NCBI GenBank assembly: GCA_012517195.1
Contig: JAAYVK010000089.1
Coordinates: forward strand, 1-45,764
Length of the DNA: 45,764 nt
Direction of reading: 5' to 3'
DNA from: Synergistaceae bacterium
GTDB lineage: Bacteria > Synergistota > Synergistia > Synergistales > 79-D21
The notes below the pieces were generated by a model. The model saw only the letters and a program-made list of their open reading frames with translations. It was not told where the DNA came from and ran no database searches. This document shows, piece by piece, positions 1-17,302 of this stretch. Position numbers and translations under genes: made by a program. The first letter of the stretch is position 1, and each line of letters starts with the position of its first letter.

Positions 1-140
1 AACGGCGTGAAGTCCGCGTATCCCTTCCGCGACAGCGTCTTCGTGATCGCCGCCGTCAGCGTCGTCTTCCCGTGGTCGATGTGCCCGATCGTGCCGATGT
101 TCAGGTGCGGCTTTGTCCTCTCAAAATGCTCCTTCGCCAT
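1..140 (-). CDS. tuf: Elongation factor Tu, N-terminal part (truncated by window edge)
   Basis: Reverse complement reads [46 protein letters not shown], the canonical EF-Tu N-terminus with the GHxDHGKT P-loop. Confidence 0.97.
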
Positions 141-176
141 CTTTAAACCCCTCCTTGTTTAGAACCGATCTCTTCG

Positions 177-2240
177 TCAGCGTTTCAGGACTTTTTCGGC
201 CACTTCGGGGCCGACTTCCGCATATTTCTGGAATTTCATCGTGTAGGAGGCCCTCCCGGAAGTTTTGCTCCGAAGGTCCGTCGCGTATCCGAACATTTCC
301 GCCAGCGGAACCAGGGCCCTCACAATCCTCGCATTGCTCCGCATTTCCATCCCTTCGACGCTTCCGCGCCGCGAAGCAAGATCCCCCATGACATCGCCGA
401 CATAATCCTCCGGTGTGACAACCTCCACCTCCATGACCGGTTCCATCAGAACCGGGGAAGCCTTCTTCATCGCTTCTTTGAAGGCCATGGACGCGGCGAT
501 TTTGAACGCGAGTTCGGAGCTGTCCACTTCGTGGTAACTCCCGTCGACCAGGGCGATCTTGACCCCGATGACCGGGTAACCGCCGAGGATGCCGTTGTTC
601 CTGGCCTCTTCAAGTCCCTTGCGGACCGCCGGGATGAACTCCTTCGGCACGACCCCGCCGACGATCCGGTCCTCGATTTCGAACCCGACATGATCGGGCA
701 GCGGTTCCATCTCGATAACGATGTCTCCGTACTGGCCGTGGCCACCGCTCTGCCGGACAAACTTTCCCTGTGCCCGTGCATTGTTGCGGATCGACTCCCG
801 GTAGGCCACCTGCGGGCGGCCGACCCGGACTTCGACCCCGAATTCCCGCTTGAGCCGGTCAACCAGGATTTCCAGGTGCAGCTCGCCCATCCCCTGGATG
901 ATCGTCTGCCCCGTTTCCTCGTCGACATGGACGCGGAACGTGGGATCTTCTTCCGCCAGGGCCGAAAGTCCCTTCGAAAGCTTGACCTGATCCGCCTTGC
1001 TGAGGGGCTCGACGGCGAGGTCGATGACCGGTTCGGGGAATTCCAGCGACTCAAGGACGATCGGGCGGCCTTCCTCGCAAAGGGTTTCTCCAGTCCGGGT
1101 CCCCTTCAGGCCGGGGAGGGCGATGATCGCGCCCGCTTCGGCGGTCTCCAGCTCCTCGCGCTTGTTTGCATGCATCCGGAGAATTCGCCCGATGCGCTCC
1201 CGCTTCCCGGTCGTGGCATTCAGGACGCTCTGCCCTGCGGCGATGCGGCCGCTATAGATGCGGCAGAAGACAAGACGCCCCACGAACGGATCCACCATGA
1301 TCTTGAAGGCCAGAGCCGTAAACGGTTCGTCCTCCGAGGGGATCCTCTCCTCTTCCTCGTTTGTGTCCGGGTTGATCCCCCGGATCGGAGGAAGGTCAAG
1401 GGGGCTCGGGAGGTAATCGACAACCGCGTCAAGGACAAGCTGGATCCCCTTGTTCTTGAACGCCGAACCGCAAAGGACCGGAACGATCTTCATCGCGATC
1501 GTCCCCTTGCGGATCGCCCTCTTGAGGGTTTCGAGCGGAACATCGTTGCCTTCAAGGTAGAGCTCCATCACTTCCTCGTCGACATCCGCGAGGGTTTCGA
1601 TCAGAAGCTCCCTGGCCATCATCGCATCTTCCTGGAGCTCGGCGGGGACGCTGACGACCTTGTAGTCCACGCCCAGGTCATCCTGGTAGATCACGGCCTT
1701 GAACGCGACCAGGTCCACCATTCCCGTAAAGCTGTCTTCAATTCCGATCGGCAGGTGAATCGGGAGCGGTTTCGCCCCCAGCCGCTCTCGGATCCCTTCG
1801 ACCACCGCATTAAAATCCGCCCCGACCCGGTCCATCTTGTTGACGAAGGCAATTCGGGGAACCCCGTACCGATCCGCTTGCCGCCAGACTGTCTCGGACT
1901 GGGGCTCCACGCCTCCGACCGCGCAGAATACGGCAACGGCGCCATCCAGGACGCGCATCGACCGCTCCACTTCAACAGTAAAATCCACGTGCCCGGGCGT
2001 ATCAATAATGTTGATATGAGCCTCGTTCCAAAGGCACGTTGTTGCGGCCGAGGTGATGGTGATCCCCCTCTCCCGTTCCTGCTCCATCCAGTCCATCGTT
2101 GCGGCGCCTTCGTGAACCTCTCCCATCTTGTGCTTTCTCCCCGTGTAGAAGAGAATGCGCTCGGTGGTCGTGGTCTTGCCCGCATCGATATGGGCGGCGA
2201 TCCCGATGTTTCGGATATTTTTCAGATCGAGTTTCGGCAT
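177..2240 (-). CDS. fusA: Elongation factor G
   Basis: 687 aa; [40 protein letters not shown]; located between rpsG and tuf. Confidence 0.98.
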
Positions 2241-2290
2241 GATTTCAGGCTCCCCGGCGCCGGCAGTTCCTGCGCTGCTTCATCGCGGGT

Positions 2291-2761
2291 CTACCAGCGG
2301 TAATGCGCAAACGCCCTGTTGGCCTCCGCCATCTTGTGCGTATCTTCGCGCTTTTTCATGGATGCCCCTTCGCCCTTGAACGCATCTGTGAACTCCCGCG
2401 CGAGGCGTTCCACCATCGGCATCCCCTTCTTGGCACGGGCATACTGGATGATCCAGCGGATGGCAAGTGCTTCCGCACGCTCCGGCCCGACCTCCACCGG
2501 CACCTGGTAGGTGGCGCCGCCGACACGCCGCGGCTTGACCTCGACAACCGGCTTCACGTTATCCATGGCCTTCCGGAAAACCTCGTCGGGCTGCGTATTC
2601 AGCCGCTTCGCAGAGAGCTCCAGGGCCCCGTAGACGATCTTTTCGGCCGTGCTCTTCTTCCCGCAATACATAACGCAGTTTACGAACTTGGTAAGGGCGG
2701 GCATCCCGAAAACCGGGTCTGCCGCCTGTGTCCTTTTTCTAACGTGCCCCTTTCGTGGCAT
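2291..2761 (-). CDS. rpsG: 30S ribosomal protein S7
   Basis: 156 aa; [19 protein letters not shown]...FAHYRW typical of S7. Confidence 0.98.
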
Positions 2762-2789
2762 GGGCTAAAGCCTCCCTTTCCGGAAAAAA

Positions 2790-3161
2790 CTATTTCGGGC
2801 GCCGTGCCCCGTATTTCGAACGGCTCTGCCGGCGGCCTTCAACCCCGCCACAGTCCAGCGTCCCGCGGATGATGTGATAGCGCACGCCTGGCAGGTCCTT
2901 GACACGTCCGCCGCGGACAAGAACCACCGAGTGCTCCTGCAGGTTATGCCCGACACCAGGAATGTAGGCGGTCACTTCGATCCCGTTTGTGAGACGGACT
3001 CGGGCCACCTTCCTCAAAGCGGAATTCGGCTTCTTCGGAGTAACCGTGTACACTCGCGTGCACACTCCCCTTCGGGAAGGGTTCCCCTGAAGGGCGGGAG
3101 CACTGGAGCGTTCTTTCTTTTCTTCCCGCCCGAGGCGGATCAACTGACTGATCGTTGGCAC
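2790..3161 (-). CDS. rpsL: 30S ribosomal protein S12
   Basis: 123 aa; [15 protein letters not shown]...[20 protein letters not shown]...SKYGARRPK. Confidence 0.99.
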
Positions 3162-3178
3162 ACAAATTCCTCCTTTCC

Positions 3179-3445
3179 CTACTCGATGTTCTTCACATTT
3201 TCCCCGAGCAGCCCTGCGGCAGCCGCCTTCCGCGAAATGGCGCAGGCGCGACCCAGCATTTCCATGCTCTCACACCACTCCACCTCGAGATTCCGCTTCC
3301 CGGCTTCCTCAAGGAGTTCCTTGACCCGATCCTCTTCAGCGTCACGCGCGAGAAAAAGTTTCTGCAACTGCCCCGACCGGATCTTCCGGAAAACCTGGCG
3401 AACCCCGACCACTCTGCGGTTCGATGCCAGCTCATTCAAAGGCAC
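3179..3445 (-). CDS. L7Ae/YbxF-like ribosomal protein family, first gene of the str operon
   Basis: [51 protein letters not shown].... The ORF track start (3505, a TTG) lies inside a promoter; a GTG at 3445 with GGGGGG 6 nt upstream is a better start. Confidence 0.85.
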
Positions 3446-3476
3446 AGCAATCCCCCCTGTGCGGACGCACCGAGAC

Positions 3477-3505
3477 ATAATATCAACCGGGGAGGCCCCT
3501 GTCAA
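3477..3505 (-). promoter_or_regulatory. Sigma70-type promoter of the L7Ae-rpsL-rpsG-fusA-tuf operon (TTGACA-N17-TATTAT)
   Basis: Minus strand: TTTTC TTGACA GGGGCCTCCCCGGTTGA TATTAT GTCTCG; -35 at 3500-3505, -10 at 3477-3482, exactly 17 bp spacer. Confidence 0.88.
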
Positions 3506-3523
3506 GAAAACGGGGGCTCCCCG
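3504..3523 (-). terminator. Intrinsic terminator of rpoBC abutting the str promoter
   Basis: Minus strand CGGGG-AGC-CCCCG hairpin (3511-3523) followed by TTTTCTT, about 38 nt after the rpoC stop. Confidence 0.7.
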
Positions 3524-3560
3524 GTTGGGGTCGTTTTCTGCCTGTTTTCTCTTAAGAGAT

Positions 3561-6500
3561 TTACGCTTTCTCGTGCATCTCGACGTGACGGTAAGCTTCG
3601 GCTCCAGTCCCTGCCGGGATGAGGTGCCCGATGATCACATTTTCCTTCAGCCCCTTGAGGGTATCAACGTCTCCCCGGACAGCGGCCTGGGCCAGAATCT
3701 GAGCCGTCTGCTGGAAAGATGCGGCGCTCATGAAGCTGTCGGTTGCCAGTGCGGCCTTGGTTACGCCATGGACAACGGGACGCCATTGCGGCTCCTCCCT
3801 CATCCTTCGGACGAAAGAAACCCGCTGGATCAGGCGCTTGGTTTCAATGGAGCTGGAGATCGGCCTGACGACAAGTTCCTGGAATTCTCCCTGGACGATT
3901 CGGTCAATGACTTCACGGCTGATCTCCGTGCCCGCGTCCGCAAGCAGTTCCCCTTTCGCGTTGCTGATCGGCTCCAGGAGGACCTTCCCGTAGGCGATGT
4001 CGCTCACCACCTGGCCCAGGAGTTTTTCCCGCGTCAGGATCTCCTGCGTCTCTCCCTCGAGCTCGACCGCCGCGATTTGTCCTTCCACCAGCCCCCTGAC
4101 AACCCTTCCGTCCAGAATCCGGCCAACGTCGTTCACCGGGTTTCCCTGGGGATTGATGGCCTGCTTGATCGGCCGGCTGAAAAACTTCTCGATCAGGTAG
4201 TGGTTCAGGGCATCTCCGATGTTATGCCTGGCCGGGGCCCGCCAAACCTTCACCACCGATGCGTTGGCCTCCTTCAGCCGTTCAAGTGCCTCCGGCGTGA
4301 GCGCCCGGTCACGGCTCAGGAACACCTTCCCGTCGGAAACGACATCCTCGGCGAGGTAGGCTCCACGCTCCAGGCTGGCCAGGGTTTCCGTATCCCTCAC
4401 GCAGAGGATCTGCGGCTTGCCGCGCGTAATTGCCAGGAGGTCCGCAAGCTCCAGAGCCGGTTTGGGCTCAATCACCGTGTGGTTTTCCAGAGAAACCGGG
4501 GCAATGAGCTCAAGTCCTTCCATCTCCCGGCGGAAAGTCGCTTCCCCGAGGATGACCCGAACCAGGCCATCCCCGTCCTCCACGGTGATCTCCCTCGCGG
4601 CTGACCCCGGCTGGAGCAGCCGCTCGATCGTGTCCGCATCGATGGGTTTTCCTTTCAGGGAGAGGACATGATCGATCCCGCTCTGTCCCTCGATGTCCCG
4701 CAATGTTTTGCCCTGCAGGAAATCCAGGGCCTCGCCGAGACACCTCTCGTTTTCCTTCCGGATCCGGTCCAGCTCCTGGTCGAGGTCATCAAGCCATGCC
4801 AGTTCGTTCGCAACGAAGGAGCTGTCCCCTTCTTCGGTGATCCGGACGCGGTTGACCGGCGCCACTTTTCTTAGGATCACCTCGATATGCTTGTTGTTGA
4901 TCGAAACACCCTGGGAGAAATAGACCTCCTGGATGCCGTCGACGAGGTATTTCTGTACCGCCTCCAGTCCCTCAACCTCGAGCAGCTGCTGCGGATCGAT
5001 ATACCCTTCTGTGAGGCACTGTCCTTTCTTCACAAGCTGGCCTTCCTCGACAAGCAGGTTTTGCGAAGCGGGAACCGTGCAGATGATCTTCTCCCCCTCG
5101 TCTTCCCCCTTGCCGATGATGACCTTGCGCTTGCCTTCCATCTCGCGGATTTCAAGCACCCGGCCGTCCGCCTCGACAAGCTGGGCGACCTTCTTGGGCC
5201 GGCGGACCTCAAAAAGCTGCTCAATCCGCGGGAGCCCCTGGGTGATGTCTTCGCCCGTCAGGCGCACGCCGCCGGTGTGGAAGGTCCGCATCGTCAGCTG
5301 GGTTCCCGGTTCGCCGATGGATTGAGCGGCCACCACGCCAACCGCCTCCCCGATGGCCACGGTTTTCCTCGTCGCGAGGTCCCTTCCGTAGCACTTTCGG
5401 CAGATGCCGTTCCGGAGCCCGCAGGTCATCGGGCTCCGAACCCAGACCGATTCGATTCCCGCATTCTCGATCTTCGCGGCGATCTCCTGGCTGATTTCAT
5501 CCCCGCCCCGGACGAGAACCTCACCCCCGGAGGGATCCTCGATGTCATAAAGGGCCGTCCTTCCGGAAATCCGGTCCGCTAGAGTGACGACCGTCTTCCC
5601 GTCCTGGACCAGGGCGCTGATCCGCGTTCCCTTGTCGGTGCCGCAATCCTCTTCGGTGATGATCAGGTCCTGCGCTACATCGACCAGGCGTCTCGTGAGG
5701 TAGCCCGACTTGGCCGTCCGCAAAGCCGTGTCGGCCAGCCCCTTCCGGGCCCCGTGAGTCGAGATGAAGTACTCGAGCATGTTCAGCCCGTCACGGAAAT
5801 TGGCCACAATCGGGTAGTCGATGATGCGCCCGGACGGATCCGCCATCAGGCCTCGGATCCCGGCCATCTGGGCAACCTGGTTCTTGCTTCCTCGAGCCCC
5901 GGAATCGATCATCATCCGGAGGGGATTGAGCTGGTCCATGTTCGCAACGATATCGTCGGCGATCTGCCTTGCCGCCTCCGACCAAAGGATTTCCTTCTGC
6001 CTCAGGTATTCTTCTTCCGTCAGGACCCCCATGCCGTACTGGGCGGAAAGCTCTTCCTCCCGCTTCATGGTTTCATCGACGGTGGTCTTCTTGCTGGGCG
6101 GGATGACCGCGCAGTCGAGTCCGAAGCTGATGCCGCTCCGGGTGGACCAGTGGTAGCCAAGGATCTTGATCGCATCGAGCATGTCAACGATAGCCGCCTG
6201 CCCGACCTTGTCGTAGGCCTTGTCAAGAAGGCTTCCGAGGTCCTTCTTCCCGATCTGCCGGTTGATGTACCGGAGATCCGGGTGGAGAACGCTGTTGAAA
6301 AGAGCCCTTCCCGGGGTTGTCTCGATCCATTCCCCTTCCCACAGCATTTTGACACGGGTGTTCGGGTGGACGACCCCGTGGTCGATCGCCGTCAGGGCAT
6401 CCTCGATATCGCGGAAGGCCATGCCTTCTCCCTTCAATCCGTCCCTCATCGCGGTCAGGTAGAAAATGCCGAGGACGATGTCCTGCGTGGGCGTCACGAC

Positions 6501-8480
6501 TGGCCTTCCGCTAGCGGGGGAAAGCAGGTTGTTGGCCGAGAGCATCAGGATGCGGGCCTCGGCCTGGGCCTCGAGCGACAGGGGGACGTGGACGGCCATC
6601 TGGTCCCCGTCGAAGTCGGCGTTGAAGGCGGTGCAGACGAGCGGCGGGAGACGAATGGCCTTCCCTTCCATCAGCACCGGTTCGAAAGCCTGAATCCCGA
6701 GCCGGTGGAGAGTGGGGGCCCGGTTCAGCATGACCGGGTGGTCCTTGATGATCTCTTCTAGGATCGCCCAGATTTCATCTCGCCCGCGCTCGATGAGTCG
6801 CCTGGCGCTCTTGACGTTCGGGGCCAGTCCCCGCTCCACCAGCTTGTGCATGACGAAGGGTTTGAAAAGCTCGAGGGCCATCTGCTTGGGCAAGCCGCAC
6901 TGGTAGATCCTGAGTTTGGGACCGATCACGATGACCGACCGCCCCGAGTAGTCGACGCGCTTGCCAAGGAGGTTCTGGCGGAAACGCCCTTTCTTCCCCC
7001 GCAGGAGGTCGCTCAAACTTTTTAGCGTACGGTTTCCCGCCCCCAGGACGGCCTTTCCCATCCGCCCGTTGTCGATGAGGGCGTCCACCGATTCCTGCAG
7101 CATCCTCTTTTCGTTGCGGACGATGATCTCCGGGGCCCTCAGTTCCTGCAATTTCCGAAGCCGGTTGTTCCGGTTGATCACCCGGCGGTACAGGTCATTC
7201 AGATCAGACGTGGCGAACCGGCCTCCCTCCAGCTGGACCATCGGACGCAGATCCGGAGGGATCACCGGGAGGACCTCCAGGATCATCCACTGGGGCTTGC
7301 TGGCGCTCTTACGGAAGTCCTCGACAACCTGCAGGCGCTTGATCAGCTTTCGTTTTTTCTGACCCGTGGTTTCGGAAATCTCTTCCCGCAGGGAGGCAGC
7401 CATTTCATCCAGGTCCAGCTTGTTCAAAAGCTGCTGGACTCCTTCAGCACCGATCCCGGCGGAAAATTCCCGATCGTAGGCGGCACAGAGGCGCTGTTCC
7501 CTTTCGAGAATGATTTCTCCCTGGGAGAAGGGGGATTCTCCGCCTTCGATGACAAGGTAGCAGGGATCTTCGATCGTCACCGTTTCCTGCTGGGCCTGGA
7601 AACGGCCAGGATATTTCTGGTTGTAGAGCTGGACCTCGCTGAGAGCCAGGACATCGTTCTTCTGGAACGGCAAATGGGCGACGGCCGTGACGACGAACGC
7701 TTCCTGGCTGCCGACAACGGCTCGCTGGATTCCGGGAAAGGCCTCCGCTCCCCCCCGCGCTTCCAGCTCGCTGGCGGAGAGGATCTCGCCCGGTCCTTCC
7801 GATTCTCCCGTCTCAATCCTGAAAGCCGGTTCGACCTTGAAGATCTCATCCCCGAAATCGGCCTTGAACCGGGCAACCTGCTGAGCGGAAACGAGATCCC
7901 CTTCGTCCAGGGGAACGTCGTCCACCTGGATCACCCGGTAGGCCTCTTCGGCCTTGAACTTCGGGTCATAGTGGGAGTGGATTCTCTCTTCCGACGCATC
8001 GATCAGGTCGCCGCGGCGGGCTAGGTCGGTTCTTCGCCCTTCCATGACGACCTTGAAAACGGGTTTTCTCCTCCGGATCGGGGCAAAGTAGACGACCTTC
8101 TCCAGGTCCTTCGTTGCCGTCCCCAGAAGGAGGCTCAGGCGGCTGGGAATTCCTCTCAGGTACCAGATATGCACGACCGGTGCCGCCAGCTCGATGTGGC
8201 CCATCCGCTCCCGGCGGACGCGGTTGTCCGTCACTTCCACGCCGCAGCGGTCGCAAAGGATGCCCTTGTACTTGGGGCCGCTCCGCTTGTATTTCCCGCA
8301 GGCGCACTCGTAGCTGCGCGTGGGGCCGAAGATCCTCTCGCAGAACAGCCCGTCCTTTTCCGGACGGAGGGTCCGGTAATTGATCGTCTCGGGTTTCTTG
8401 ACTTCCCCGCTGGAAAGTTCACGAATCCGTTCCGTGCTCGCGAGCTTGATTCGGACTCCGACGATTTCGCGGCGGCTCAT
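3561..8480 (-). CDS. rpoC: DNA-directed RNA polymerase subunit beta'
   Basis: 1639 aa; [15 protein letters not shown] active site, zinc site CxC...Cxx[17 protein letters not shown]-terminus; contains large lineage inserts. Confidence 0.98.
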
Positions 8481-11400
8481 TTATGCATCCTCCCCCTCGC
8501 GGGTCAAATCCTGTTCATCCGGTTCCTCTTCTTCCTCAAAAGAGGCGTCAAGCTCTTTCGGGCTGACAAAAAGCATTTCCTCCGTAACTCCGGCCGCAGA
8601 GGGAGGCAGCAGATCCTCGCCCGACTCCAGGTCCAGATCGACAATCGCCGGGCGCGGCCTCGGCGTTCCCGGGGCTCCCATTTCCTCGTCCTCGTCCTCA
8701 AGCAGGATCTCGCCGACCGTCCCGTCGTCGTACATGATCTCGACATCCAGCGCAAGGCCCTGCAGTTCCTTGACGAGCACCCGGAAGCTTTCCGGCACCC
8801 CGGGCTTCGTCAGGTTCTGTCCCTTCACGATCCGTTCATAGGTTTTCAGGCGTCCGCGGATGTCGTCGGATTTCACCGTCAGGATCTCCTGAAGGATATG
8901 CGAGGCCCCATATCCCTCGAGGGCCCAGACCTCCATCTCCCCGAACCGCTGGCCGCCAAACTGGGCTTTTCCTCCCAGCGGCTGCTGGGTGATCAGGCTG
9001 TAAGGGCCGATGGAGCGGGCATGGATCTTGTCGTCCACCAGGTGGATCAGCTTCAGCATGTACATGTAGCCGACGGTGACCTTGTTTTCCATTGCCTCCC
9101 CGGTCCTGCCGTCGTAGATCGTGATGCGGCCGTCCGCGGCCATCTCTGGATAGGGCCCCTCGGCAAGCTTCCTGACGCCGTCGAAGATGTCCTGCTCCGT
9201 CGCCCCCTCAAAAACCGGGGTCGATACCTTCCAGCCGTTGTGGACCGCAACGAATCCCATGACCGTCTCCATGACCTGCCCGAGGTTCATACGGCTCGGA
9301 ACACCGAGCGGGCTGAGCACGACATCGACCGGGGTGCCATCCGGAAGGTAAGGCATGTCCTCGACAGGGAGGATTTTCGAAACGACCCCCTTGTTCCCGT
9401 GACGGCCCGCGATCTTGTCCCCTTCCGAGATCTTCCGGAGCTGGGCCACGTAAACCTTGACCACCTCGTTCACGCCGGGGCTCAGGTCGTCGCTGTTCTG
9501 GTCGATCGTCAGGCGCTTGACGGAAACCACCTTGCCCCCCTCTCCGTTCGGGACCCGCATGGACGTGTCCCGGACCTCGCGGGCCTTCTCCCCGAAGATG
9601 GCCCTTAAAAGCTTCTCTTCCGGGGACTGGTCGGATTCTCCCTTGGGCGTCACCTTGCCGACAAGGATGTCCCCGGCCCTCACTTCCGCCCCGACCCGGA
9701 CGATGCCGTTCTCGTCCAGATTCTTAAGGGCGTCTTCACCGACATTCGGGATATCCCGGGTGATTTCCTCGGGCCCCAGCTTCGTATCCCTTGCCTCGAC
9801 TTCATACTCCTCGATGTGGATGGAGGAATAGTGGTCTTCCTGCACGAGCCTCTCGTTCAGGAGGATCGCGTCCTCGAAGTTGTACCCTTCCCAGGAGACG
9901 AAGGCAACGAGGACATTGCGGCCGAGAGCCAGTTCCCCGTGATCCACGGACTGGCCATCAGCGATGATTTCCCCGGCTTCGACAGTATCGCCGCTAGAAA
10001 CGATGGGGCGGTGGTGGATCACGGTGCCCTGGTTGGACCTCCGGAATTTCGTAAGGTTGTATGAATCCAGCGAACCGCCGGCGGTGCGGATTTCAATCCG
10101 GCTGGCGTCCACAAACTCCACCGTCCCCGAGCGCCGCGCCCTTACGCAGCAGCCGGAATCCTTCGCGATATGGTGCTCGATTCCCGTCCCGATGATGGGA
10201 GCCTGGGGAAGAACGAGGGGAACAGCCTGCCTCTGCATGTTCGATCCCATCAGGGCCCGGTTCGCGTCGTCGTGTTCCAGGAAGGGGATCAGGGCCGTCG
10301 AGATCGAAACAATCTGTTTTGGGGAAACATCCAGGAAATTGATTTTCTCGGGTTCGACCGTCTCGATCTCCCCCCGGAATCGGACATGGACATCGGGTCC
10401 CAGGATCCGGCCCTGCTCGTCCACCGGGGTGTTCGCCCTTCCCACGAAGAATTCGTCCTCTTCGTCTGCCGAAAGGTACTCGATCTCGTCCGTCACCCGC
10501 CCCTCAACGACCCTCCTCTTCGGCGTCACGAGGAAGCCGTAGTCGTTGATTCGAGCGTAGGTTGCGAGGGAGGTCACGAGCCCGATGTTCGGACCTTCCG
10601 GCGTTTCGATCGGACAAACGCGCCCATAGTGGGTGTAGTGAACGTCACGCGCCTCGAACCCTGTCCGCTCCCGGCTGAGGCCCCCGGGGCCCAGCGCTGA
10701 GAGCCGGCGCCTGTGCGTCAGCTCGGCCAGCGGGTTTGTCTGGTCCATGAACTGGGAAAGCTGGGCTGAACCGAAGAATTCCCTCAGGGAAGCGGAAATG
10801 GGCCTGACGTTGATCAGGTCCTTTGCCGTAGCGCTGGTCAGGTCGGGGAGCGTTGTCATCCTTTCCTTGGCGATCCGTTCCATCCTCAGAAGACCGATGC
10901 GCACCTGGTTCTGGAGAAGTTCACCCACGGCCCGGACCCGCCGATTCCCCAGATGGTCGATGTCGTCTTCCTTTTCCTCCCCGTTTCGAAGCTGCAGGAT
11001 CCCCTTGATGATGGCGACGATGTCATCGACCGTCAGAAGCCTCTGGCTCTCGGGGATGTCGAGGCCCAGCCGCTTGTTGAGCTTGTAGCGGCCGACACGG
11101 CCGAGGTTGTACCGGCGGGTGTCGAAAAAGAGCCCGTAGACGTATTCCTTGGCGTTTTCCATTCGCGCGGGTTCGTTCGGGCGAAGGCGGCGGAAAAGCT
11201 CCAGGACCGCGTCCTCCCCCGAGCGGGAGGGATCCCGCTCCAGGGTTGCCGCGATCGCGTTGTCCACATCCCAGACCCAAACGCTCGTCAGGCCCATCTC
11301 GAAGAGCAGCTCAAGGTGTTCCTTCGTCAGCCGGTCATTTCGCCGGATCAGGACCTGGCCTTCCTTGTCCGGGATCGCTTCGGCCAGGAGACGGCCGCGA

Positions 11401-12107
11401 GCCTCGTCGCGGAGCTCCACGAGGTCCACCTGCACCGGCTTCGCCCCGAACAGCTTCAGGATTTCCTCGTCGGTCGTCGCCCCGAACGCCTTGAGAAGCA
11501 TCGTCACGGGAATCTTCTTGCGGTTGTCGATGTTGACAGAGAGAAGGTCTCCCGGCGTCAGGTCGAATTCCAGCCAGGCGCCCCGGTCGGGAATGACCTT
11601 GGCGGCATAGGATTCCCCCCCGGGGACGGTCGTGTCTGAACTGAAATATACACCGGCCGACCGTGCGAGCTGGTTCACAACAACGCGTTCGGTCCCGTTG
11701 ACAATGAATGTTCCCCTCTCCGTCATTACGGGAAAATCGCCGAGGTAGATCTCCTCTTCCTTGATCTCCCCGTTCCGACGGTTGACCAGTCGGATCGTCG
11801 CCCTTACGGGCATGGACCAGGTCAGGTCTCTCTGGCGGGCTTCCTCCTCGGTGATGGGGGACTCATCGACAAAATAGCGGACAAATTCGAGCGCAAACGA
11901 TCCGTCGTAACTCTCGATGGGGAAAATTTCCTCCAGGATTTCCTGGAGCCCCTGAGATTCCCGGGAATCCGCCTCCTTTTCCGCCTGGAAAAACCAGCGA
12001 TAGGAATTTTTCTGTACCTCGACGAGATCCGGTAAGCCAATGAGATCCTTCGTTCTCCCAAAAACGCGGCGCTGAATCTGTTCCTTCGAGGGGGCAAAAA
12101 CTGTCAT
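8481..12107 (-). CDS. rpoB: DNA-directed RNA polymerase subunit beta
   Basis: [53 protein letters not shown]. Start moved to ATG 12107 ([17 protein letters not shown]), which follows a GGGAGG. The stop TAA directly abuts the rpoC ATG. Confidence 0.97.
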
Positions 12108-12124
12108 GGGAGTTACGACCTCCC
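12108..12124 (-). promoter_or_regulatory. Short inverted repeat covering the rpoB Shine-Dalgarno
   Basis: Minus strand GGGAG-GTCGTAA-CTCCC-ATG: 5-bp stem immediately before the start codon; the left arm is the SD. Confidence 0.45.
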
Positions 12125-12166
12125 TTTTGAGGTTTGTGGGGACTATCCTAGACGTGACGAAGGGGC

Positions 12167-12195
12167 ATAATAGCAAAAAGGTCGCGCCATGTCAA
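12167..12195 (-). promoter_or_regulatory. Sigma70-type rpoBC promoter (TTGACA-N17-TATTAT)
   Basis: Minus strand TTGACA TGGCGCGACCTTTTTGC TATTAT; -35 at 12190-12195, -10 at 12167-12172, 17 bp spacer. Confidence 0.88.
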
Positions 12196-12211
12196 CAGAC
12201 ATGGCGCGACC
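12175..12211 (-). terminator. Intrinsic terminator downstream of tRNA-Leu
   Basis: Perfect 13-bp stem GGTCGCGCCATGT / ACATGGCGCGACC, 6-nt loop CTGTTG, then TTTTT on the minus strand. Confidence 0.92.
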
Positions 12212-12240
12212 TCGCTGACCCATTCTCTGGGAATTTTTTA

Positions 12241-12327
12241 TGGTGTCGAGGGGGGGAGTTGAACCCCCACAGGCTAATGCCCACTAGAGCCTGAGTCTAG
12301 CGCGTCTACCAATTCCGCCACCCCGAC
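12241..12327 (-). tRNA. tRNA-Leu (anticodon CAG)
   Basis: 87-nt minus-strand sequence GTCGGGGTGGCGGAATTGGTAGACGCGCTAGACTCAGGCTCTAG...GGGTTCAACTCCCCCCCTCGACACCA; acceptor stem, anticodon loop CTCAGGC, long variable arm, encoded CCA. Confidence 0.96.
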
Positions 12328-12346
12328 ATCACAATCGACAAACGGG

Positions 12347-12375
12347 ATTTTAGCAACGTGCGCCCTTTTTGGCAA
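12347..12375 (-). promoter_or_regulatory. tRNA-Leu promoter (TTGCCA-N17-TAAAAT)
   Basis: -35 TTGCCA at 12370-12375 and -10 TAAAAT at 12347-12352, 17 bp spacer; predicted start about 13 nt upstream of the mature tRNA 5' end. Confidence 0.75.
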
Positions 12376-12386
12376 GGGCCTTTCTT

Positions 12387-15284
<2,898 letters not shown>

Positions 15285-15301
15285 CAGGGCCTCCAAAATT
15301 G

Positions 15302-15329
15302 AATCGCGGGCGATCGGGCGCCCGCGATT
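15302..15329 (-). terminator. Perfect 11-bp GC-rich hairpin between metG and tatD (terminator-like or mRNA-processing element)
   Basis: Minus strand AATCGCGGGCG-CCCGAT-CGCCCGCGATT followed by CAATTTT, just upstream of the tatD SD. Confidence 0.6.
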
Positions 15330-15373
15330 TTCAGACTGACACACGGTTCCGGGCGGGGTGGGCGAGCCGCCTT

Positions 15374-17302
15374 TCAGTGGATCCGGCTTCCAGGTGTTAT
15401 GGGCCTGTCGAGCGTCAGAAGAGCCAGTTCCTTTCCATCCGGGCTTTCCGCCGCAAGCAGCATCCCGTTGCTCACAACCCCCCGCAGTTTTGCGGGCTTC
15501 AGGTTGCAGATGACGATGATATCCCGCCCCACAAGTTCGGCGGGTTCGTAAAACTCCCGAATGCCCGAGACGATCGTCCTTCTCTCGTAGCCGAGGTCAA
15601 GGTTGAGCTTGTACAGTTTGCTGGCGTTCGGGACCGGTTCGACGCTCAGGACCCGGGCGGTCCTCAGTTCGATCTTCCGGAATTCCTCCACGCCGACTTC
15701 CGCCTCGTGTTCTCCTGGATCGGGGAGCAGGTTCCTTTTCGCTTCCCGTTCCGCCCTTGCTTCCTCCCAGGCTTTCAGATCGATTCGCGGGAAAAGGACC
15801 TCGTCCCTCCGGATGGTGGTCCCTTCGGGAAGAAAGCCCCACGGGTAATCTTCAAACAGGGCATTGGCGGGATCTCCTGCCAGCCCCAGCTGGTTCCACA
15901 TGCGGCAAGCCGTTTCGGGCATGAAGGGGGCCACCATGAGGGCGATCTGGATCAAGGCCTGGTACAGGGTTCCAAGGACAGAGTCCAGCCGGGGGTCATT
16001 CTCCTTCCCAAGCTTCCAGGGGGCCGTTTCGTCGATATATTTGTTCATCCGGGAAATGAATGACCAAATAGCCTTCAATGCCTCGTCGAAAGCGAACTCG
16101 GACATCCGGGCACGAACAGTCTCGAATGTCGAGGAGGCCAGCCGGGCCATTTCGAGATCAAGTGGATCCACAGGCCCGCAGGCCGTGACGGTGCAGCCCT
16201 TGAATCGCTCGATCATCTGAAGCGTTCGGTTCAGGAGGTTCCCCAGGTCGTTCGCCAGGTCCGAGTTGATCCGTTTGACAAGGGCGCTCTCGGAAAAGTC
16301 CCCGTCAAGCCCGAAGGGAACCTCGCGAAGAAGGAAGTACCGGAACGCATCCTTCCCGTAAAGGTTTACCATCTCGAACGGATCCACCACATTGCCCCTG
16401 GACTTGGACATTTTCTCCCCCTCGACGGTCCACCAGCCGTGGGAAAATACCTGGCGCGGCGGGTTGACCCCAAGGGCAAGAAGCATGGCAGGCCAGACGA
16501 CACAGTGGAACCGGATGATGTCTTTTCCAACGAGGTGACGGACGTAAGGCCAGTACTGCTTCCATTTCGCTTCTTCGTCGGGGTATCCGCAGACCGTCAG
16601 GTAATTGATCAGGGCATCGAACCAGACGTAGATGACGTGGCGGTCATCTCCCGGTACCGGGATCCCCCACTTCAGCGTCGTCCGCGAGATGGACTGGTCC
16701 TTGAGGCCGCTCCGGATAAAGCTGACGATCTCGTTATACCGGGTCCGGGGAAGGATGGCGTCCGGGTTTTCCTCGTAAAAGCGCAAGAGGGGTTCCTGGT
16801 ACCTGGACATGCGGAAGAAGTAACTTTCTTCGGTCATCTTTTCAAGCGGTCTCTTGCAATCGGGGCAAGTCTTGCCTTCCCCCATCTGGGCTTCAGGAAC
16901 GTAGGTTTCGCACGGGACACAATACCATCCTTCGTAGGTCCCCTTGTAAACGTCCCCCTGCGCTAAAAGTTTCTCAAAAACCGCCGTCACGACCTTGAAA
17001 TGCCGCTCTTCTGTTGTGCGGATGAAGTCATCGTTTGATATTCCAAGGACTTCCCAGAGCTTCTTGAAATTTTCAACCGTCTGATCGGCAAGCTGCTGCG
17101 CCGTGAGCCCCCGACTCTCCGCGGCCTGCTGGATTTTCTGCCCGTGTTCATCGGTTCCCGTAGCGAACAGGACCGGCTGGCCCATCATCCGGTGAAACCG
17201 CGCGCTGACATCGGCCGCGATCGTGGTATAGGCATGCCCGATGTGGGGAACATCGTTGACGTAATAGATGGGGGTCGTGATGTAGAAAGGTTCCCTGTTC
17301 AT
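15374..17302 (-). CDS. metG: Methionyl-tRNA synthetase with C-terminal tRNA-binding (OB-fold) domain
   Basis: MNREPFYITTPIYYVNDVPHIGHAYTT, EKMSKSRGN (KMSKS), C-terminal RTARVLSVEPVPNASKLYKL; true start at 17302 with AAAGGAGG. Confidence 0.97.
   Translation of the reverse strand: MNREPFYITTPIYYVNDVPHIGHAYTTIAADVSARFHRMMGQPVLFATGTDEHGQKIQQAAESRGLTAQQLADQTVENFKKLWEVLGISNDDFIRTTEERHFKVVTAVFEKLLAQGDVYKGTYEGWYCVPCETYVPEAQMGEGKTCPDCKRPLEKMTEESYFFRMSRYQEPLLRFYEENPDAILPRTRYNEIVSFIRSGLKDQSISRTTLKWGIPVPGDDRHVIYVWFDALINYLTVCGYPDEEAKWKQYWPYVRHLVGKDIIRFHCVVWPAMLLALGVNPPRQVFSHGWWTVEGEKMSKSRGNVVDPFEMVNLYGKDAFRYFLLREVPFGLDGDFSESALVKRINSDLANDLGNLLNRTLQMIERFKGCTVTACGPVDPLDLEMARLASSTFETVRARMSEFAFDEALKAIWSFISRMNKYIDETAPWKLGKENDPRLDSVLGTLYQALIQIALMVAPFMPETACRMWNQLGLAGDPANALFEDYPWGFLPEGTTIRRDEVLFPRIDLKAWEEARAEREAKRNLLPDPGEHEAEVGVEEFRKIELRTARVLSVEPVPNASKLYKLNLDLGYERRTIVSGIREFYEPAELVGRDIIVICNLKPAKLRGVVSNGMLLAAESPDGKELALLTLDRPITPGSRIH

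Follow-up and report, generated by a model that had tools for sequence, protein, structure and literature searches.

How bacteria maintain a constant level of RNA polymerase (RNAP) is only partly understood. In E. coli, an attenuator lies between rplL and rpoB. Where promoters stand in tandem, transcription from the upstream one enters the downstream one and interferes with it (occlusion, sitting-duck interference), and terminators that overlap promoters are already known. The E. coli rplKAJL-rpoBC operon is served by multiple promoters (PMC12083536). In vitro, RNAP mostly remains DNA-bound after intrinsic termination and is able to initiate again at promoters nearby (PMC6978380, PMC6978322), and restart at a nearby downstream promoter followed 37-55% of terminations in vitro (PMC6978380). 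Harden et al. observed mostly antisense secondary starts, proposed that nearby sense promoters could be activated, and raised the question of whether, in cells, RNAP that has let go of its transcript at a terminator is able to feed or to block the promoter next to it (PMC6978322). Our search of the open-access literature turned up no account of a terminator at rpoB with a promoter nested in it.

We analysed a window of 45,764 nucleotides (the whole stretch of DNA under study) from a 1.23-Mb MAG of the Synergistales, phylum Synergistota (Synergistetes). On the minus strand, in the 5' to 3' direction, AGGTCGCGCCATGTC-TGTT-GACATGGCGCGACCT comes after tRNA-Leu(CAG); a T-run (-TTTTG) and TGCTATTAT come next, ahead of the rpoB ATG at 12107 (Table 1). 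The hairpin stem comprises 15 Watson-Crick pairs, or 16 if a closing G-T pair is added, and this GC-rich stem passes directly into a T-run of 5, as in an intrinsic terminator; most relatives show the same layout. An earlier note on this DNA had described a perfect 13-bp stem with T5; the perfect pairing and the T5 stand, and the length is corrected to 15 bp. The note had also placed a TTGACA-N17-TATTAT promoter on the same DNA as the terminator, with the -35 starting in the loop and entering the right arm and the T-run lying in the 17-nt -35/-10 spacer. The sequence and a consensus scan bore out each of these points on the minus strand at 12195..12167. With TATTAT at 12172..12167, 60 nt upstream of rpoB, a TGn extension and a 17-nt spacer, the site agrees with a sigma-70-type extended -10 promoter at 11/12 consensus positions. 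The hairpin around the -35 has a dG of -32.7 kcal/mol and a z of -7.4 against shuffles retaining the hexamer, and within the 8 kb scanned the nest was both the top promoter-like site and the longest terminator-like site. Elements similar to the probable tRNA-Leu promoter (TTGCCA..TGnTA..AT) stand upstream of the tRNA in relatives. In window positions 1-16000, Rfam at the gathering score gave the tRNA as its sole match, with no riboswitch, T-box or leader family.

Table 1. Features of the rpoBC region in the window
Feature	Position	Strand	Evidence or remark
Terminator hairpin, 15-bp perfect stem, loop TGTT	12179..12212; T-run on to 12175	minus	Sequence, folding, covariation in relatives
-35 TTGACA of the rpoB promoter	12190..12195	minus	TT belongs to the hairpin loop, GACA opens the right arm
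Extended -10 TGCTATTAT	12167..12175	minus	TGnTATnnT kept in most relatives
tRNA-Leu(CAG), upstream transcription unit	12241..12327	minus	ARAGORN, Rfam RF00005
Probable tRNA-Leu promoter, TTGCCA-N17-TAAAAT with TGn	12347..12375	minus	Consensus scan; just past the sua5 stop
sua5 (threonylcarbamoyl-AMP synthase), upstream of the tRNA	12387..13382	minus	Pfam PF01300, PF03481
rpoB	8481..12107	minus	Pfam Rpb2 domains
rpoC	3561..8480	minus	Pfam Rpb1 domains
rpoB RBS GGGAGG with complementary CTCCC right before the ATG (possible masking hairpin)	12107..12131	minus	Sequence
Second nested promoter, TTGACA-N17-TATTAT with TGn	3477..3505	minus	Pattern match; hairpin dG -28.3, z -5.4, no T-run

As in the E. 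coli rplKAJL-rpoBC operon, a hairpin before rpoB divides an upstream unit from rpoBC, and more than one promoter is present. Unlike in E. coli, rplL is distant here, a tRNA or an orphan leader makes up the transcription unit ahead of rpoBC, and the hairpin contains the rpoB promoter. The rpoBC genes are separate from rplKAJL in Synergistota; the hairpin does not lie between rplL and rpoB as the E. coli attenuator does, rplL being on another contig of the MAG and hundreds of kb away in two relatives with closed genomes, G017 and G042.

We compared the DNA upstream of rpoB in about 110 genomes from 10 families of the order and in 5 outgroup genomes of the phylum. A genome was scored as nested when a hairpin with z <= -3 enclosed the -35, and the scored set consisted of the 107 genomes with a TTGA-type rpoB promoter. 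The nest was present in 78/107 genomes, covering 33 genera and 9/10 families, so that the co-location of stem and -35 anticipated in the earlier note holds for most junctions and fails in a minority. TTGAC and TGnTATnnT were kept in the rpoB promoters of most relatives; in family f2 the T-run was poor. The stem alignment covered 35 distinct sequences sharing the most frequent loop size; in it, 12/15 stem pairs showed compensatory change on both sides and 92.6% of cells were paired. The stem covariation score was 0.77, compared with 0.27 for shuffled and 0.13-0.23 for slid alignments, and exchanging arms between families lowered pairing from 13.4/15 to 9.9/15. The arms diverge between genera, with complementarity and TTGAC alone persisting; the three innermost pairs are near-invariant because the promoter fixes TTGAC and the left arm is adapted to it (TGTC). 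These results indicate that in the nest a conserved terminator, working at the RNA level, is fused with the promoter of rpoBC. Across an order, one set of bases has been kept both as a terminator-type RNA stem and as a sigma-70-type promoter.

Several further elements were observed around the rpoB leader. The GGGAGG/CTCCC pairing could mask the start site and is thus a candidate means of controlling RpoB translation; it occurs in f1, f2, f6, f7, f9, f10 and most of f5 (7/10 families) and is absent from f3, f4, f8 and the outgroup. Many f5 genera share a conserved inverted repeat, TTGTACGATTGTACA, where the rpoB transcript begins (L026, L021 and other f5 loci). In L025, L030 and L032, a promoter-like element (TTGCAA..TATAAT) stands between tRNA-Leu and the nest, and its start would fall at the hairpin.

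The position of the hairpin was compared with that of its two neighbours. In 75/78 nested genomes a loop of 3-5 nt runs up to GAC, and the distance from the tRNA to the -35 varies from 27 to 122 nt across relatives. The nest hairpin resembles the ordinary tRNA terminators of the same genomes in having a GC-rich stem and a T-run on the tRNA strand. It differs in staying with a promoter; for the other tRNA terminators, both here and in Thermanaerovibrio acidaminovorans, the usual position is 6-20 nt past the tRNA, with no promoter inside. The hairpin thus tracks the rpoB promoter rather than the tRNA. Promoter-like matches inside other tRNA terminators numbered 0/11 in this genome and 2/13, both weak, in T. 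acidaminovorans, and nesting as a general trait of tRNA terminators was rejected on these counts. At the T. acidaminovorans tRNA-Thr(GGT)/tuf junction (L346, minus strand, near 1776), a weak TTGAAG-N17-TATGGT lies within the tRNA terminator.

The earlier note had read the nest as a tRNA-Leu terminator joined to the rpoB promoter; the nest itself proved conserved across the order, and the tRNA did not prove to be an essential partner. This tRNA adjoins rpoB in 81 genomes of the order, 66 of them nested, and is missing from this place in 32, of which 12 are nested. An orphan promoter feeding the nest (TTGACA-N18-[C/G]ATAAT, its -10 at 65-77 nt upstream of the nested -35 and no gene between) was found in 8/12 tRNA-less nested genomes and in 1/20 tRNA-less un-nested genomes; the Fisher p of about 0.0004 ignores the relatedness of the genomes, and the orphan promoters are drawn mostly from one clade. 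In f5 g40, tRNA, orphan promoter and nest are all present, and in L185, which is tRNA-less and nested, a protein gene ends just upstream. In tRNA-less genomes without an orphan promoter, the hairpin is mostly lost and the rpoB promoter kept. These patterns indicate that the tRNA, absent in several genera where an orphan promoter stands instead, is not the essential partner of the nest, and that the hairpin goes with incoming transcription, the promoter surviving without either. Loss of the hairpin in the absence of upstream transcription, while the promoter stays, fits an RNA terminator and not a DNA operator or cruciform. The f3 genome L182, which is tRNA-less, has its -35 in the left arm of another kind of hairpin (AGCCTTGACTTTTTTGTCAAGGCT), perhaps a nest rebuilt independently.

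The two elements can also part. Family f9 retains the tRNA and the promoter with no enclosing hairpin and no clear tRNA terminator; in f4 g4 the hairpin remains but the -35 is gone; and in f4 g17 terminator and promoter are both present and stand apart. Judging from these lineages, the overlap is dispensable. Outgroup family f11 is mostly without the nest, and tRNA-Arg(CCG) replaces tRNA-Leu there, lying about 230 nt upstream of rpoB in L196, L198, L199 and L200; in L198 the terminator stem ends in a weak -35.

A second nest was found after rpoC and before an L7Ae-like gene, rpsL, rpsG and fusA (downstream genes by Pfam, the L7Ae-like gene named by eye). It and the rpoB nest account for the 2 nested sites among 8 near-consensus extended promoters in this genome. 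A hairpin at rpoC/rpsL also occurs in f3 g21 and g26, f4 g11 and g17, f5 g12, g18, g22 and g24, f7 g7 and g19, and f8 g8; the rpoC/rpsL nest is absent in f2, f4 g4, f6, f9 and f10. Lacking a proper T-run, this hairpin may be a weak terminator. Across seven genomes, 11/12 strong promoters at the two rpoBC boundaries were nested versus 1/43 elsewhere (a borderline case), the 43 controls being unmatched for a co-directional gene upstream and the base rates being taken from pattern matches. Nesting as a general habit of strong promoters was rejected on this count. Stretches upstream of rplL, scanned in six genomes, held no further nest.

These observations lead us to a model in which the same bases would act twice. 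In the nascent RNA, the hairpin and U-run would end the upstream transcript, which is tRNA-Leu here and an orphan leader of about 80 nt in some relatives; in the DNA, they would form the -35 and spacer of a strong sigma-70-type rpoBC promoter. An RNAP terminating the upstream transcript would halt once its active site had reached the -35/-10 spacer, and there it would cover the promoter in full, and an RNAP waiting at the rpoB promoter would obstruct the path of the upstream RNAP. Upstream transcription and rpoB initiation would therefore be mutually exclusive in time. As in tandem-promoter interference, upstream transcription would run into the rpoB promoter; unlike there, the upstream RNAP would be made to stop within that promoter and not pass through. 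The earlier note had named occlusion, recycling and cruciform formation as possible couplings, and either of the first two would be physically expected from the RNAP stopping position.

Upstream firing would rise with free RNAP and growth, and for this reason we propose that the overlap acts as a negative feedback on rpoBC. Tentatively, and with somewhat less than even confidence, we take its likeliest selected use to be such a regulator-free feedback, working through occlusion and dislodgement and restraining RNAP synthesis when RNAP is plentiful. We infer termination efficiency, promoter use, mutual exclusion and its sign, and selection for the coupling from the sequences. A broader version, which we consider doubtful, would be a protein-free RNAP homeostat: tRNA or orphan-leader transcription stopped inside the rpoBC promoter would report free RNAP and set rpoBC initiation, and the related nest would relay the signal to rpsL-fusA.

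The main rival is that the bases are shared without any coupling. An ancestral overlap of terminator and rpoB promoter would have been frozen, each element constraining the shared bases, with no regulatory role. Since an overlap, once formed, is hard to undo, conservation alone is no proof of selected coupling. The single losses in f9 and f4 g4 are consistent with this account, and a hairpin that is mostly gone, its promoter kept, where no upstream transcription is apparent behaves as an ordinary terminator would. The account leaves unexplained why orphan promoters are kept without a gene, why a second nest exists at rpoC/rpsL, why nests are nearly absent from other strong promoters, and why the hairpin never shifts to the usual 6-20 nt past the tRNA. 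We regard it as a serious possibility, if on balance a rather unlikely one.

Attenuation would cast the upstream promoter as a second rpoBC promoter, the hairpin as a leaky and perhaps regulated attenuator comparable to that at E. coli rplL-rpoB, and the inner promoter as basal. Orphan promoters with no gene before the nest would suit this role, as would a second nest that lacks a T-run and would terminate weakly. Moreover, f4 g4 apparently lacks the inner promoter and f9 a clear tRNA terminator, and in both readthrough probably feeds rpoB. However, the stems of the first nest are mostly very strong and have T-runs, and orphan leaders compared by eye showed no evident conserved fold, alternative structure, sensor or antiterminator. 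Attenuation also does not require a -35 in the loop, and we consider it quite unlikely as the explanation of the nest.

In a local hand-over, RNAP would release the upstream RNA, stay on the DNA, take up sigma and restart at the nested promoter, boosting rpoB. The layout has the intrinsic terminator near a sense promoter that was suggested as a coupling device in the studies of post-termination recycling (PMC6978380, PMC6978322); those studies used assay templates and genome-wide antisense signals, whereas in the Synergistales promoter and terminator share bases and are conserved over the order. Restart by retained RNAP at a nearby downstream promoter in vitro (PMC6978380) and the proposed activation of nearby sense promoters (PMC6978322) speak for a hand-over, and the mostly antisense secondary starts of Harden et al. 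(PMC6978322) speak against it. The sequences do not separate hand-over from occlusion, and we rate hand-over as very unlikely. That the palindrome is a DNA element, a protein operator or cruciform over the -35, is highly improbable: a long perfect inverted repeat at this place does resemble one, and the second nest has no T-run, but the stem sequence changes freely between genera with complementarity kept, which ill suits a protein site, no half-site sequence is conserved between the differing arms, and the hairpin, unlike the promoter, has mostly disappeared from genomes without upstream transcription.

The nest is a natural, conserved arrangement of shared bases that comes with its own natural controls, namely lineages in which hairpin, promoter or tRNA is missing. 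It thereby opens to direct test both how RNAP levels are held and whether a terminating RNAP feeds or blocks the adjacent promoter. If the proposed negative feedback is true, the cell's own transcription may set the amount of RNAP that is made.
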